From a bacterium (GTDB lineage Bacteria; Vulcanimicrobiota; Vulcanimicrobiia; Vulcanimicrobiales; Vulcanimicrobiaceae): 64,000 nt of DNA. The position numbers were made by a program, and so were the translations under genes. Within the stretch, counting starts at the first letter, position 1, and each line of letters starts with the position of its first letter. The stretch is from positions 35,596 to 99,595 of the forward strand of contig JAJYRI010000002.1 of assembly GCA_021794175.1 (NCBI GenBank). The letters are read 5' to 3'. Of this stretch, positions 15,881 to 45,889 are shown piece by piece. The notes below the pieces were generated by a model, which was not told the origin of the DNA, did not search any database, and saw nothing but the letters and a program-made list of their open reading frames with translations.

Positions 15881-16809
15881 CGACCGGCGATTGCGCGTGC
15901 GTGGCGGACGATTTCGGCACGCACGCTCGGCGGATCGAGCAATTCAACCGAGTCTCCCCACGCGATGGCATTGCGTACCGCCGATCGTTCGCTTGAAAAA
16001 TAAACGCGTACGACGCGTTCATCTTCGGGTTCGACGCTCTCCGTTCGATAGTAACCACAGATCATCCCACGAACGTCTTCGTCGTTAATCCGCACGATCG
16101 CCGCAAATGATGGGCGATCCGAGAGCATGCGTGCGGCTGTTTCGCGCCAGAAAGTCTCCAGCGTGAAAGCGACGTCTCTTTCGAAATGCCGCTCCTCGAC
16201 ACGGACCTCAACGATACGATCGACGCGGAAACTTCGGTATCCGGCATCGGTACGCGCGATGACATACCAGACCCCAGCCTTCGAGACGAGGCCGTAGGGT
16301 TCGGCTGAGCGATCGCTCTGCTTTCCCTCGCGGTCCTTATAGCGCAGCCGGATGACGCGATCGTCCCATACGGCACGGCGTAGTAACGATAAGCGCTCGA
16401 CGGAAGGATCGTTTTGGAACCAGCGCCGCTGATCGATGTAGATTCGGCCGCGAACGCTTTCGGCAGCGCGGCGCTGTATATCGGAGAGGCCGCCGCGCAA
16501 TTTCTCGAGCGCGCGTTCCCCTTTACCGCCGAGCCCGAGATCGGCAACTAATGACGACCCGGTGATGAAGAGCGCTTGAATTTCCTCGTCGCCGAATTGC
16601 ACGAGCGCGCGGCGGTAGCCTTCGCTCAATGCAATGCCTCCGTTTGCACCGCGTTCCGCAAAGACCGGTATGCCTGCGGCGGCGAGTGAATCGACGTCGC
16701 GATAGACAGTACGCTCGGAGATTTCCAATTCCACGGCGAGTTCACGGGCCGTGCGCCGCGGCCGGGCTTGGAGGAGCAACAATAATTCGAGAAGGCGGTC
16801 GGCTTTCAC
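15793..16809 (-). CDS. WYL-domain transcriptional regulator (YafY-like)
   Basis: 'MKADRLLELLLLLQARPRRTARELAVELEISERTVYRDVDSLAAAGIPV' HTH_11 plus 'EPYGLVSKAGVWYVIARTDAGYRSFRVDRI' WYL segment. Confidence 0.9.
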   Translation of the reverse strand: MKADRLLELLLLLQARPRRTARELAVELEISERTVYRDVDSLAAAGIPVFAERGANGGIALSEGYRRALVQFGDEEIQALFITGSSLVADLGLGGKGERALEKLRGGLSDIQRRAAESVRGRIYIDQRRWFQNDPSVERLSLLRRAVWDDRVIRLRYKDREGKQSDRSAEPYGLVSKAGVWYVIARTDAGYRSFRVDRIVEVRVEERHFERDVAFTLETFWRETAARMLSDRPSFAAIVRINDEDVRGMICGYYRTESVEPEDERVVRVYFSSERSAVRNAIAWGDSVELLDPPSVRAEIVRHARAIAGRYNAIRLKSPRSSATKRKKRAAPAPSMTR

Positions 16810-16894
16810 TATGCTAGATTTGCAAATATGACAGTATATGTCAAGTATCAGCGGCTAGGATAACCGCAAACACCGCCTTTTAGGAGAAAAACCA

Positions 16895-17260
16895 ATGGAG
16901 ACGACTACTTCGACCGCTCGTGCATCCGGGATCGACTGCGTGTGCTATCTCGCAAAAGACTTCAATCGGGCGAAAGTCTTTTACACCGAGGTGCTGGGCT
17001 TGCGCGCCGTCCAAGAAAGCGATAACTGGACCGAATTCGAACTCGCCGACGGCTCTGCGTTCGCCGTCGCGCATATGCCCGATAAATGGTTTCCCTGTGG
17101 CGGAACGATGTTCGCCGTGCCCGATATCGAGGCGGCTCTCGCGCAGGTTCGCGCTACGGGCGTGACGATCTACAGCGAAATTCAGGACTATCCCCCGTGC
17201 CGCACGGTTTGGTGCTCCGATACTGAGGGCAATAATTTCGCCCTGCACCAGCGTCGTTAA
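16895..17260 (+). CDS. VOC-family (glyoxalase/bleomycin-resistance-like) protein
   Basis: 'DCVCYLAKDFNRAKVFYTEVLGLRAVQESDNWTEFELADGSAFAV' and 'DTEGNNFALHQ'; TAGGAG SD. Confidence 0.88.
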   Translation: METTTSTARASGIDCVCYLAKDFNRAKVFYTEVLGLRAVQESDNWTEFELADGSAFAVAHMPDKWFPCGGTMFAVPDIEAALAQVRATGVTIYSEIQDYPPCRTVWCSDTEGNNFALHQRR

Positions 17261-17904
17261 GCACCCTCTTCCCGCTCGTGCTCTTTCGGCCGATTCCGGA
17301 GGCGATTCCAGAGAGCAACCAACAGGCGTCCGCCTCCGCCGTAACCCACGACCATCGCAAGCGGGACCAACGAGAGGTACGCGGGGCCCCTCGTTGCCGC
17401 CCAATACGTACCGATCGATAAGAGCGACGCGGAGAGCAGCGCGGAAGCGATGACCCTGACGAGCCGCGCTTTCCCGGCATCGTCGAGAAAGGCGCCGCGC
17501 CGACGATAGCTGCGCGCCGTCATCGCGGCGTTGAGCACAAAATTTATCGCCAGCGTTGCAAAATACAATTCCGTGCCGATGACGTTGTCACCTAACGTCG
17601 CCGCATGAGCGCTGATCTGCATGAAGTAGGTCAATAGCGCGACGGTGGCGAGCCAAGCGAAATTTATGAGGATGTTGAGCGTATCCGGATAGAAGACGAC
17701 GCGAAAGAGCCGGTAATGCGACCACCACATGAGCGCGACGATCGAAAAGGTAAAGAGATAATAGAGAATCCAAGAGGGATCGCGTACGAGCGCAATCGCG
17801 TGGTTCGGTATTACCAGCCCGAAGGTGAGCTCGGCGAGGCTGAAGCCGATGACGATATCGCAGAAGGCTTCGAGCCGATGGACGAGCTGCTCGTCGCGTT
17901 CCAT
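17257..17904 (-). CDS. TMEM175-like (DUF1211) membrane protein
   Basis: 'RLEAFCDIVIGFSLAELTFGL' matches the TMEM175 TM1 signature (R-x3-FSD-x-V) with S->C; multiple TM helices, 'WWSHYRLFR'. Confidence 0.7.
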   Translation of the reverse strand: MERDEQLVHRLEAFCDIVIGFSLAELTFGLVIPNHAIALVRDPSWILYYLFTFSIVALMWWSHYRLFRVVFYPDTLNILINFAWLATVALLTYFMQISAHAATLGDNVIGTELYFATLAINFVLNAAMTARSYRRRGAFLDDAGKARLVRVIASALLSASLLSIGTYWAATRGPAYLSLVPLAMVVGYGGGGRLLVALWNRLRNRPKEHEREEGA

Positions 17905-17909
17905 AACGC

Positions 17910-18299
17910 CTACAGTGCGGCGTCGCCCAACAGCGCGCGCGCTCGGTCGTTATTATCGGTGCTGATCGCTACCACGGCGAACCCTTCGTCGCGCCGAACG
18001 TGATGGAGCGAGCGGATATTGATCTCTGCATCACCGAGCCTGCGCGAGACCCCTGCGAGCGCACCGGGGCGGTCCTCGATCCGCGCGAGCAACACATCGT
18101 CGGTAACGGCGGGATGCCCCGCATCGGCGAGGGCGGCGAGCGCCTCATTCTCACGCTCGACTTCGAGCCGAACCAACGCCGCACTGCCATGCGATTCAAC
18201 GACGATCGCGTGAATGTCGACACCGCGAGCGGCGAGAACCTCGGTGATCTCCGCCAGCAGCCCCGGCCGATTCGGAACGATCGCTCTTAGACTTTGCAT
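17910..18299 (-). CDS. tandem ACT-domain protein
   Basis: Two ACT units: 'LRAIVPNRPGLLAEITEVLAARGVDIHAIVVE' and 'LARIEDRPGALAGVSRRLGDAEINIRSLHHV'. Confidence 0.85.
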   Translation of the reverse strand: MQSLRAIVPNRPGLLAEITEVLAARGVDIHAIVVESHGSAALVRLEVERENEALAALADAGHPAVTDDVLLARIEDRPGALAGVSRRLGDAEINIRSLHHVRRDEGFAVVAISTDNNDRARALLGDAAL

Positions 18300-19399
18300 G
18301 CATCCTCCTTAGCTGACGAGGCGAGTTCGGCGACGAATGCGTCGATCTGGTCGCGTCCCACATTCGGCAACACTACGACGTGCGAAATATCGCCCGCAGT
18401 GGCAAGTTGCCATCGTTGCTGAATCTCCGGAGAGACCCGTGGGAGCACCACCGTGATGGCGTTCGGATTACGCCACGCCGGCACGCCGATTCCCACCAAC
18501 CGCTCGACCAGATATTCGGCATTCGCCAACGAACGCGCGAGTCGCTCGCGCAAACCCTTCTCGCCGAGTTGCTGCAGGCGATACCACAGCATCAACGGGG
18601 AAAAGCCGCTCCGCGAACCGGTGATCGTCGTGTCGAGGCTACCGATATAATCGATCGAACGCGCGATGCGCTGCACGTTGTGTTTGCGCGCGATGACGAT
18701 GCCGCAGGGGATCGGCGCACCGAGAAATTTATGCCCGCTGATCGCGACCGAATCGGCGCCGTCGGCGAAATCCCATGCCGGCCGCGGTTCGAGATACGCC
18801 GCATATCCGCCGGCGAGCGCGGCATCGGAATGAATGTAACGCTCGCGAATCGCCATACGGTCCATCATCGCCGCGATGCGCCCGATATCGTCGCGCGCCT
18901 CGGTCATCGTGGTTCCGATATTTGCAAAAATAATCGGCGGGCGGTCGCGATGGATCTTGAGCGTTTCCAGAAGATCGTCGTAGTCGATCTCTCCGTTACT
19001 TTGCGAGCGAATCGTGATATGCCGCATTCCCAAGAAATGCAGGTTCTTCGAAACGCTGTAATGGGTCGCTTCGGAATAGTAGACGATCCCATCGGGGTGC
19101 AGCTCGCGCGCGAGATAGAGGCCGTAGAGGTTTCCCTCCGTGCCGCCGTTGGTTACGTATCCCCACCAGTCGTCTTGCGGCGCCCGCGTCGCCTCGGCGA
19201 AAAAGGCGACGACTTCACGCTCGCATTCGCGGGTATGTACCCGATAGGTGCTCTGCGCGAACGGATCGCCGATGTTGTTGATCGGGAACTCCAGAAAGCG
19301 CTCGATCGCGGAGTAATCGAAATCCTTAGCAGCCGGGTAGCCGAGCGAATCTTCATTCGCCGACTTCAGCTCCTCAAATAAACGATCGAGGCGTTCCAT
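18287..19399 (-). CDS. hdc: PLP-dependent histidine decarboxylase (group II amino acid decarboxylase)
   Basis: 'FPINNIGDPFAQSTYRVHTRECEREVVAFFAE', 'GYVTNGGTEGNLYGLYLAREL', 'DSVAISGHKFLGAPIPCGIVIAR' (PLP lysine in SGHK). Confidence 0.75.
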   Translation of the reverse strand: MERLDRLFEELKSANEDSLGYPAAKDFDYSAIERFLEFPINNIGDPFAQSTYRVHTRECEREVVAFFAEATRAPQDDWWGYVTNGGTEGNLYGLYLARELHPDGIVYYSEATHYSVSKNLHFLGMRHITIRSQSNGEIDYDDLLETLKIHRDRPPIIFANIGTTMTEARDDIGRIAAMMDRMAIRERYIHSDAALAGGYAAYLEPRPAWDFADGADSVAISGHKFLGAPIPCGIVIARKHNVQRIARSIDYIGSLDTTITGSRSGFSPLMLWYRLQQLGEKGLRERLARSLANAEYLVERLVGIGVPAWRNPNAITVVLPRVSPEIQQRWQLATAGDISHVVVLPNVGRDQIDAFVAELASSAKEDACKV

Positions 19400-19440: not shown

Positions 19441-22194
19441 TTAGCGTTTCGAGGCCGCGCGTAGCTGGCGGAGGACGTACTGGAGAATTCCGCCATGCCG
19501 ATAGTATTCAGCCTCGTCGGGAGTGTCGATACGCACGCGAGCCTTGAAGTGTACCGACTTCCCGCTCTGCGGATCGGTCGCCTTTACTTGGACCTCCATG
19601 CGTGGCTTCACCCCGCCGGAGATGCCGAGAATCTCAACGATCTCTTCACCGCTTAAGGCGTAGCTGCCGGCGTTTTCGCCGTTGACGAACTCCAACGGCA
19701 GCACGCCCATGCCGATGAGGTTGCTGCGATGGATGCGCTCGAACGACTCGGCGATAACGGCGCGTACGCCGAGCAGTGCCGGGCCCTTCGCTGCCCAGTC
19801 GCGCGACGAACCCGACCCGTATTCTTTCCCGGCGATAATCACCAGCGGCGTGCCGTCTTTTTTGTAGCGCATCGCGGCATCGAAGATCGACATCTGCTCG
19901 CCGGTCGGCAGGTAGCGCGTCACGCCGCCTTCCACTCCGGGAACCAGAGCATTGCGCAGACGGATGTTTGCAAACGTACCGCGCATCATCACCTCGTGAT
20001 TGCCGCGGCGCGCGCCGTAGGAGTTAAAGTCCGCAGGCTCGATACCACGTTCGACGAGATATTTCGCGGCGGGCGAGTTCTTCGCAATCGATCCTGCCGG
20101 CGAGATATGGTCGGTCGTCACCGAATCGCCGAGGACGGCGAGAACGCGAGCGCCGACGATATCGGTCGTGGCGCCCGGCTCGGCGGGCATGCCCTCGAAA
20201 TATGGCGGATTTTTGACGTACTCGGATTTCGGATCCCACGCATACCGCTCGCTTGCGGCAACCGCCAGGTTCGCCCAGTTCGCGTCGCCGCGGAAGACGT
20301 CGGCGTAGCGCGACTTAAACATTTCGTCGGTGACGCATTGCGTGACCACGCGCGCGACTTCTTCGTTCGAGGGCCAAATATCGCGCAGATAGACGGGCTT
20401 CCCGTCGCTGCCGACGCCCAGTGGGTCGACATTGAGATCGATATCGAGGCGACCCGCCAACGCATAGGCGACGACGAGCGGCGGTGAGGCGAGATAGTTC
20501 GCCCGCACCTGTGCGTGAATGCGTCCTTCGAAGTTACGGTTGCCGGAGAGCACCGCGCCGACGAAGAGATTGCGTTCGGAAATCGCTTCGCTTACTTCGC
20601 TCGGCAGCGGGCCCGAGTTGCCGATGCAGGTCGTGCAGCCGTAACCGACGAGATTGAAACCGAGCGCGTCGAGCGAACGCTGTAAATCGGCCTTCGCCAA
20701 ATAATCGGTGACGACTTTACTGCCCGGCGCGAGCGATGTTTTCACCCACGGTTTCTGTTTGAGGCCGCGCTCGACGGCGCGCTTTGCAAGCAACCCTGCC
20801 GCGACGAGCACCGATGGATTGCTGGTATTGGTGCAGCTGGTAATCGCTGCGATGACGACCGATCCGTCGGTGAGTTCGGCCGGCCCGTCGGCAAGCGCGA
20901 CGCCGCCGTTTCCGCCTTCGTTTTGCATGCGCTCCGCACCGCGGGTCGCCGGCGTACGCGTCTTTGCATATTCGGCAAAGGCGCCGTTGAACGACGATTT
21001 GACGTCGCTCAGGCGAACGCGATCTTGCGGACGGCGCGGGCCTGCGAGGCTCGGTTCGACGGTTCCGAGATCGAGCACGAGCGTGTCGCTATACTGCGGC
21101 TCGGGTGCGTCGTCGGTGCGGAAGATCCCCTGCGCGCGCGCGTAGGCCTCGACCAATGCGATATGTTCGGGCGCGCGACCGGTAAGGCGCAGATATTCCA
21201 GCGTCCGATCGTCGATCGGAAACATCGCCACCGTCGAGCCGAACTCCGGCGACATGTTGCCGATGGTGGTGCGGTCGGCGACCGGCAAGCGGCTTAACCC
21301 CGTCCCGTAGAACTCGACGAACTTTCCGACGACGCCCTTTTTACGCAGCATCTGCGTTACGGTGAGCACCAAATCGGTCGCCGTGACGCCTTCGCGAAGC
21401 GCACCTTCGAGTTTGAAGCCGATGACTTCGGGGATCAACATCGTGACCGGCTGGCCTAACATCGCCGCCTCGGCTTCGATGCCGCCGACGCCGAAAGCGA
21501 GCACGCCTAAGCCGTCGACCATCGTCGTGTGGGAATCGGTGCCGACCGCACTATCGGGATACGCCACGGCAGTCGCCGGATCGTAAGCAACCCCGGCACC
21601 GCCGGCTCCGAAGATAACGCGCGCGAGATATTCGATGTTGACTTGATGGACGATGCCGGTATCGGGCGGAACGGCGCGGAAATTCGCGAGCGCGGACTGC
21701 CCCCATTTTAAGAACGCATACCGCTCGCGGTTGCGCTTGAATTCAATCTCGGCGTTTTGGTCGGCCGCATCGGCGGTGCCGAAGCGATCGACCTGCACCG
21801 AATGATCGATCACGAGCTCGACCGGCTGCAACGGGTTGATCGCGTTCGGATCTCCGCCCATCGACGCCATAGCGTCGCGCATCGCGGCGAGATCGACGAC
21901 GCACGGAACGCCGGTAAAATCTTGTAACAGCACGCGCGCCGGACGGAACGCAATCTCCTTTTCGGAGTGCGTTCGTGGGCTCCATCGTGCGAGCGCCTCG
22001 ATATCGGCTTTTGTTACCGAGCGCCCATCCTCAAAGCGAAGAAGATTCTCTAAAAGAATCTTGATCGAGTAAGGTAGCGTCGTGAGATCGGCGAGCCCGG
22101 CCTCATGCAGTGCGGCGAGGCGATAATAGGTGTAGGATCGGTCGCCGACGCGAAGCGTGTCGACGGCATTAAAGCTTGATGTTTTTGCGCTCAT
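19441..22194 (-). CDS. acnA: aconitate hydratase
   Basis: 917 aa; '[21 protein letters not shown]', '[32 protein letters not shown]', '[22 protein letters not shown]', '[19 protein letters not shown]'. Confidence 0.97.
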
Positions 22195-44489: not shown

Positions 44490-45889
44490 GGTTTCGGCTC
44501 CGGCCGCAGCAACGAACGGTGAAAACCGTAGAGGAAATAGACCACGAGGCCGACGACGAACCACGCTGCAAAACGCAACCAGGTGGGCAACGACAGCCCC
44601 GTGATGAGATAGATGCAGCCGAGAGCCCCCAAAACCGTAAAGAGCGGTGCGAGCGGGGCACGGAACGGGCGCGGCGCGTCAGGTTCGACGATGCGTAAAA
44701 CCAAGACGCCGGCACAGACGATGGCGAAGGCCGAGAGCGTGCCGATATTCACGAAATCCAGCAGCGTCGAGAGCGGCAACACCGCTGCCAAGACGGCGAC
44801 GATGACGCCGGTGATGACGGTCATGCGAGCCGGCGTTCGAAAGACCGGGTGGATACGCGCGACGCCCGGCGGCAGCATGCGATCTCGCGCCATCACGTAG
44901 AAAATACGGATCTGCCCCAGCAGCGACGTGAGCATCACCGTCGTATTGCCGGCGACGCCGCCGAGGGCAACGACGGCATAAATGACGTTATCGTGCGAGA
45001 CGTTTCCCAGAGCGTCGAGCATCGCGGCGCCCTCGGAGAGGCGCCCGTACGGCATCGCCCCCACCGTAGCGTACGCAATCGCCACGTAGAGTAGCCCGCC
45101 GATCGCAAGTGCGAGGAGAATGCCGATCGGCACGTGTCGTTTCGGTTCGTGCGCTTCTTCGGAGGCAACCGTTACGGTATCGAAGCCGATATAGGCGTAA
45201 AAGACCAGCGCCGTGCTGGCAACGATGCCATGCCAGCCATGCGGTGCGAACGGCGTGAGGTTTGCTGCATGGACGCCCGGCAGAACCACCGCAAGGAAGA
45301 TCAGCATCGAAAGCACCTGAAAGATCACCAGTGCCCCGTTGATGCGGGCGGATTCGCGAATACCGATCGCCACCAGGGCGGCAATCGCAAGCGTGATGAG
45401 CGCCGCGATGAGATCGAACTGCGGATGCGCCGTAAAGACATTCGCTTCGCGCGCCCACGGCGGCAGAACGATGCCGGCTTTCGCCAATAAATGGCCGGCA
45501 TATTGGGACCACGACGAAGCGGTCGGCGCAACCGATAGCCCGTACTCGAGAATGAGATCCCAGCCGATCACCCACGCCACGAACTCGCCGAGCGTTGCGT
45601 AGGCGTAGGTGTAAGCACTTCCCGCGATCGGAACCATCGATGCGAATTCGGCGTAACAGAGCGCGACGCAGAGACTGACGAGTCCGGAGAAGAGGTAGGC
45701 GAGTATGACCGCCGGCCCGGCGACGTGCGCGCCCGCGCCGATCGTCGGAAAAATTCCGCCGAGCATCGTGCCGAGGCCGATTGCGGTGAGTGCGGGCCAT
45801 CCGAGCGCGCGACGAAGCTTCGGCCCATCGCTCTGCACGGAATCGCGCGCGATCGGTTGTCGCGCGAGCAATTGTCGGAAGCGACTCAT
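44486..45889 (-). CDS. APC-superfamily amino acid permease (cationic amino acid transporter-like)
   Basis: 'LGWPALTAIGLGTMLGGIFPTIGAGAHVAGPAVILAYLFSGLVSLCVALCYAEFASMVPIAGSAYTYAYATLGEFVAWVIGWDLILEY'. Confidence 0.9.
   Translation of the reverse strand: MSRFRQLLARQPIARDSVQSDGPKLRRALGWPALTAIGLGTMLGGIFPTIGAGAHVAGPAVILAYLFSGLVSLCVALCYAEFASMVPIAGSAYTYAYATLGEFVAWVIGWDLILEYGLSVAPTASSWSQYAGHLLAKAGIVLPPWAREANVFTAHPQFDLIAALITLAIAALVAIGIRESARINGALVIFQVLSMLIFLAVVLPGVHAANLTPFAPHGWHGIVASTALVFYAYIGFDTVTVASEEAHEPKRHVPIGILLALAIGGLLYVAIAYATVGAMPYGRLSEGAAMLDALGNVSHDNVIYAVVALGGVAGNTTVMLTSLLGQIRIFYVMARDRMLPPGVARIHPVFRTPARMTVITGVIVAVLAAVLPLSTLLDFVNIGTLSAFAIVCAGVLVLRIVEPDAPRPFRAPLAPLFTVLGALGCIYLITGLSLPTWLRFAAWFVVGLVVYFLYGFHRSLLRPEPKP

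Follow-up and report, generated by a model that had tools for sequence, protein, structure and literature searches.

A gene for a PLP-dependent group II amino-acid decarboxylase is accompanied in three bacterial phyla by a gene for a protein with two ACT domains, always on the same strand and directly downstream, and the two form a genuine two-gene module whose linkage is far beyond chance. We think it probable that they encode a two-part, amino-acid-regulated decarboxylase in which the tandem-ACT protein is the regulatory subunit and the substrate is likely to be hydrophobic or aromatic. The direct basis of this model consists of the genes, their folds, the catalytic residues, the linkage across phyla, one natural fusion and the clustered history of the ACT gene on the enzyme tree; the complex, its ligand, the direction of regulation and the substrate are what we infer from these.

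Gene arrangement in the window

The window, a stretch of 64,000 nucleotides, is part of contig C67 of a 2.6 Mb genome from the phylum Candidatus Eremiobacterota. The three open reading frames that a preliminary description of this DNA had singled out are all present on the minus strand (Table 1), and the overlap that it had reported between the end of the decarboxylase gene and the start of the ACT gene was borne out. The TMEM175-like reading frame does adjoin the ACT gene, as had also been described, but the gap between them is 5 nt and not 6 nt. A good ribosome-binding site, AAGGAGG, lies just upstream of the ACT initiator ATG, inside the 3' end of the decarboxylase gene. The aconitase gene in turn overlaps an RNase D-like gene; from this overlap and the short gap between the aconitase and decarboxylase genes, it is likely that the aconitase, decarboxylase and ACT genes share one transcript. 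A scan for promoters and terminators gave no signal exceeding that of shuffled sequences. It had been noted correctly that no antiporter gene is adjacent. About 25 kb away, at window positions 44582-45805 on the minus strand, is a gene for an APC-family amino-acid permease (PF13520, 165 bits), and the genome has three more.

Table 1. Features of the decarboxylase-ACT locus, in window coordinates
Feature	Position	Strand	Size or spacing	Basis
PLP group II amino-acid decarboxylase (HDC/SerDC-type)	18287..19399	-	370 aa	PF00282, NF002748
Tandem ACT protein, proposed regulatory subunit	17910..18299	-	129 aa	PF01842 in two stretches
Overlap of decarboxylase end and ACT start	18287..18299	-	13 nt	sequence
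TMEM175-like membrane protein, judged an accidental downstream neighbour	17257..17904	-	215 aa	PF06736
Aconitase, upstream neighbour of the decarboxylase	19441..22194	-	41-nt gap	PF00330

Linkage of the two genes across genomes

We found the ACT gene downstream of the decarboxylase gene in the nine other genomes of the window's genus and also in two more genera of its family. Among 149 Eremiobacterota genomes, 21 carried the decarboxylase subfamily and 20 of these also the ACT protein; at the 21st locus (L181/L092) the beginning of the ACT gene is cut off by the end of the contig. Wherever an Eremiobacterota locus held enough DNA, the ACT gene was on the same strand and directly downstream. 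A scan of about 85,000 genomes with two short peptide patterns gave 80 loci, and the same arrangement was seen in Gammaproteobacteria (Vibrio chagasii, Motiliproteus, Lysobacterales and others) and in Verrucomicrobiota. The spacing of the two genes mostly ranges from a 19-nt overlap to an 11-nt gap, the overlaps measuring 1-19 nt; the 13-nt overlap of the window is kept in most members of the genus, with overlaps or short gaps elsewhere.

Since that scan used short patterns, the linkage was retested by profile searches of evenly drawn genomes. The class Gammaproteobacteria, to which Motiliproteus belongs, yielded 16 decarboxylase matches in 369 genomes: the ACT gene accompanied all 13 matches above 528 bits (one of them fused and one cut by a contig end) and none of the three below 460 bits. 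It was likewise present with 11 of 12 subfamily members in the draws from the Verrucomicrobiota class and phylum, L199 being the exception, and with two of three subfamily members in Vibrio, where none of the sampled lower-scoring HDC-type enzymes had one. Conservation of the neighbourhood in related genomes, which had been suggested as a check, is thus observed for this pair over three phyla. When flanking genes were compared all-against-all, none besides the ACT gene was widely common between phyla, so that the pathway is not readable from context. Distances between decarboxylases correlate with those between ACT proteins (r = 0.86, 29 loci), as would be expected for any co-inherited neighbours. 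At one locus (L150:5962-7096) the decarboxylase gene is split by an apparent frameshift, either artefact or decay, and its ACT gene is intact.

The two parts are joined in locus L235 (genome G718, class Gammaproteobacteria), where they occupy a single open frame of 611 codons: the decarboxylase spans residues 91-449 and the ACT pair residues 482-610, joined by 32 linker residues rich in Pro and Ala, and Pfam detects both parts. As the ACT part does not begin with a Met and no stop separates it from the decarboxylase, a simple frameshift error is unlikely to be the cause. The fusion was found once, and G718 is the only genome of its order in the sample. The conserved genetic tie to one enzyme that marks an ACT regulatory subunit is accordingly seen in three phyla and one fusion. 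The earlier suggestion that the ACT protein could be a ligand-responsive regulator of the decarboxylase is supported by the cross-phylum linkage, the translational overlap and this fusion, which mark it as a dedicated partner and probably such a regulator.

On a FastTree phylogeny of 129 decarboxylases, presence of the ACT gene (60 rows, three phyla) is accounted for by 4 changes, versus about 43 in shuffles, and on a smaller tree built with the LG+C20 mixture model by 2 changes. Most simply, these trees suggest that the ACT gene was gained once, basally in the clade, and later lost in a few lineages, among them Bacteroidota, whose sampled genomes do not encode it; neither the position of the root nor the count of losses is firmly settled. 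An adjacent ACT gene is absent from relatives in Chitinophaga, Pedobacter, Solitalea and Microbulbifer, whose enzymes share about 56-65% identity with that of the window, and in all 16 ACT-less genomes that were searched the ACT protein was also absent from elsewhere in the genome. Since these relatives persist without it in Bacteroidota and Microbulbifer, the ACT partner is dispensable there. Decarboxylase positions 149, 153, 158, 338 and others separate enzymes with and without an ACT gene; we considered them as a possible interface and rejected them, as they are mostly Bacteroidota-specific.

The decarboxylase and its probable substrate

The decarboxylase is a PLP enzyme of fold-type I, group II, in the HDC/SerDC branch. 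It belongs to PF00282 (68.5 bits, 5.7e-19, cut-off 27) and passes the threshold of the NCBIfam model NF002748, "histidine decarboxylase" (477.8 bits, cut-off 305). The Schiff-base residue is Lys224 in SGHKF, the catalytic-loop residue is Tyr251, the substrate-site motif is Y21-P22-A23 and the loop reads INNIGDPF. His113 (stacking), Asp192 (to the pyridine N), Lys224 and Tyr251 are invariant in 35 subfamily members, and Lys224 and Tyr251 align with Lys314 and Tyr341 of the Arabidopsis serine decarboxylase, AtSerDC. Foldseek searches with an AF2 model retrieved HDC 7erv (44% identity) and AtSerDC 8jg7 (40%).

The evidence does not support calling this enzyme a histidine decarboxylase, and histidine as the substrate is doubtful by the substrate-site residues. 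NF002748 also accepts AtSerDC (460.7 bits, against the same cut-off); it is therefore not substrate-specific, and names taken from it are unsafe. The specificity position is Tyr111 in AtSerDC and Ala23 in the window enzyme. At this position, directly after YP, Photobacterium HDC has Glu, AtSerDC has Tyr and the window clade has Ala, Val, Ser, Gly, Cys, Thr or Ile; the Eremiobacterota members have Ala, Gly or Ser, and so do not show the Tyr of plant-type SerDC. The loop is GDP(F/Y/W) across the window clade, as in SerDC and AlaDC, and GDW in HDC. Neither the window enzyme nor its clade has the bacterial HDC pattern of Glu after YP with GDW.

In plants it is the residue following YP that determines whether serine or alanine is used (PMC11407765), and the histidine activity of AtSerDC is not measurable (PMC4177580). 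Among legume SDC-like aldehyde synthases, those carrying YPT take Phe, Met, Leu and Trp (PMC4177580, PMC11407765). From the small residue at YPX, the GDPF loop and the substrates of these legume enzymes, our best guess is that a hydrophobic or aromatic amino acid is a likelier substrate than histidine. Some Vibrio decarboxylases (L213-L219, L224 and L225), which are near bacterial HDC and have no ACT gene, pair YPV with GDW; the YPX position alone is therefore no code.

The tandem-ACT protein

Both ACT domains are recognized in the smaller protein, which matches PF01842 in two stretches (9.6e-21) and ACT_AHAS_ss (4.1e-12), and whose AF2 model (pLDDT 92.5) has the secondary structure of two ACT units. 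The nearest Foldseek matches of the model were BT0572 and YdjB, and the regulatory subunits of aspartate kinase and of AHAS were also among the matches. Global TM values to solved structures are low (0.4-0.5), probably owing to a different arrangement of the two domains relative to each other. Nearly all members keep the DxPGxLA turn of the second domain and Arg at position 96, whereas the matching PG turn of the first domain is less conserved and not kept in all members; the second domain is for this reason the better candidate for ligand binding.

We envisage that the decarboxylase would convert an L-amino acid, most likely hydrophobic or aromatic, into an amine; that the tandem-ACT protein would bind an amino acid, either the enzyme's substrate or a pathway product; and that, docked on the decarboxylase, it would raise or lower the activity of the enzyme. 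Such control may be likened to that of acetohydroxyacid synthase by IlvN/IlvH.

The TMEM175-like gene and other neighbours

The TMEM175-like reading frame matches PF06736 (33.7 bits, cut-off 25). TMEM175 channels carry an RxxxFSD motif in the first transmembrane helix; in its place, all three intact copies that we found have RLEAFCD, with the Cys kept. Downstream DNA was readable in nine members of the genus, the window genome included. The gene is intact in three of them (the window genome, G003 and G007), broken in four (by a frameshift and early stop in G001, and into pieces in G002, G004 and G005) and absent from two (G006 and G008). These genomes are MAGs, in which a lone frameshift could be an error but pieces and absences could not. 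The gene is also not beside the decarboxylase-ACT pair in G015, G019 or the other phyla. Its inclusion in a unit with the pair, as first proposed, does not hold: the TMEM175 gene is a decaying accidental neighbour. The whole segment in which it lies (window 15881-17904, encoding a WYL regulator, a glyoxalase-like protein and the TMEM175-like protein), between the ACT gene and the gene for pyruvate dehydrogenase E2, varies within the genus, and in G008 hardly any spacing is left between the E2 and ACT genes.

The aconitase gene is upstream of the pair throughout the genus and in G015, and is not beside it in G019 or other phyla. We considered aconitase as a linked partner and rejected it, the adjacency being seen only within Eremiobacterota; as it is not adjacent in G019, the pair is independent of it.

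Alternative explanations

The ACT protein might instead be a separate amino-acid sensor of the same pathway, for example a co-regulator of expression, or a folding partner, and not an allosteric subunit, although we regard this as unlikely. Some stand-alone ACT pairs, those of the GcvR type, do function in gene regulation, and 1u8s is among the Foldseek matches of the ACT model. The ligand domain of Lrp/AsnC regulators is itself ACT-like, and a gene for such a regulator is divergent from the adjacent ACT-less decarboxylase gene in 18 loci (for example L107:5334-5846, minus strand), mostly of Chitinophaga. In Chitinophaga, transcription may be the level at which amino acids control this enzyme. 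With one further case, the gammaproteobacterial locus L103 (L103:5364-5882, minus strand), these loci make amino-acid-dependent control of transcription seem one mode of regulating this enzyme. L103 also encodes the ACT protein, however, so that Lrp regulator and ACT protein are not simple substitutes, and the Lrp/AsnC, mechanosensitive channel and histidine kinase genes that neighbour the Chitinophaga enzyme belong to the ACT-less lineage. A profile search found no DNA-binding domain in the ACT protein. That it is fused to the enzyme in one genome, and that the two genes are coupled tightly and often overlap, favours a physical partner, as in the regulatory-subunit model.

That the enzyme is a true histidine decarboxylase, to which an ACT sensor for histidine or histamine has been added, strikes us as quite improbable. 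Photobacterium HDC is its best PDB match by both sequence and fold and the NF002748 score is far over the cut-off, but that score is approached by a plant serine decarboxylase which has no measurable histidine activity (PMC4177580), and the clade departs from HDC both at the Tyr111 position and in the loop. We give still less credence, indeed very little, to an operon for pH or ion homeostasis made up of a histidine decarboxylase, the ACT protein and a TMEM175 channel, as the preliminary description had suggested. The gene order of the window and the 5-nt ACT-TMEM175 gap agree with it, and some Eremiobacterota inhabit acid mine drainage (PMC8357290). Against it are the pseudogene-like or missing TMEM175 gene in six of the nine genus members and its absence from beside the pair elsewhere, the substrate-site residues, and the fact that the pair is also found in Verrucomicrobiota, in Vibrio and in other gammaproteobacteria, among which no transporter or channel is shared. 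As a conserved unit, this three-gene operon is largely refuted.

Comparison with known systems

We know of no group II amino-acid decarboxylase (whether for histidine, DOPA, glutamate or serine) that is controlled via an ACT regulatory subunit, and a search of the open-access literature found no relevant paper joining the ACT domain with histidine or amino-acid decarboxylases. We would put at about even the chances that the pair represents an undescribed, phylum-crossing class of PLP group II decarboxylase that is switched by a tandem-ACT subunit, that this subunit was acquired a single time with several later losses, and that the enzyme acts on an amino acid other than histidine or serine. 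If so, amine production would gain a feedback switch of a type known from amino-acid biosynthesis, and many "histidine decarboxylase" annotations would need correcting. The question can be tested directly on the natural contrast between Eremiobacterota, Gammaproteobacteria and Verrucomicrobiota, which have members with the ACT protein, and Bacteroidota, whose members are without it.

Among known enzymes, the HDC of Photobacterium phosphoreum (7eru/7erv) resembles the window enzyme in fold (TM 0.93), length, catalytic Lys, Tyr and His, and 44% identity; it differs in Glu at YPX and a GDW loop, where the window enzyme has Ala and GDPF, and the sampled HDC-type enzymes of Vibrio differ also in having no adjacent ACT gene. 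The plant enzymes AtSerDC (8jg7) and CsAlaDC (8jij) share the GDPF loop and a C-terminal RWQLA..GDI.HVVV.P segment (40-41% identity, TM 0.93-0.94), but have Tyr or Phe at YPX in place of the small residue of the window clade and are without a bacterial-type ACT gene. They have in addition a C-terminal zinc finger (PMC11407765), for which the 370-aa window protein leaves no room. The legume YPT aldehyde synthases do have a small residue at YPX, as in the window clade, but are plant enzymes and carry out oxidative deamination, and the parts of PMC4177580 and PMC11407765 that describe them report no regulatory partner.

For the ACT protein, the closest solved ACT pairs are two stand-alone ones, BT0572 (2f06, 27%, listed as a conserved hypothetical protein) and 9vp8 (22%, listed as YdjB). 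The ACT subunits of AHAS (2f1f) and aspartate kinase (2zho) belong to other enzyme classes and show low identity and a global TM of about 0.43-0.46, yet they are alike in being a separate ACT pair that serves one enzyme. Regulation through ACT domains is in itself familiar; its application to a group II decarboxylase is, as far as we have found, new.
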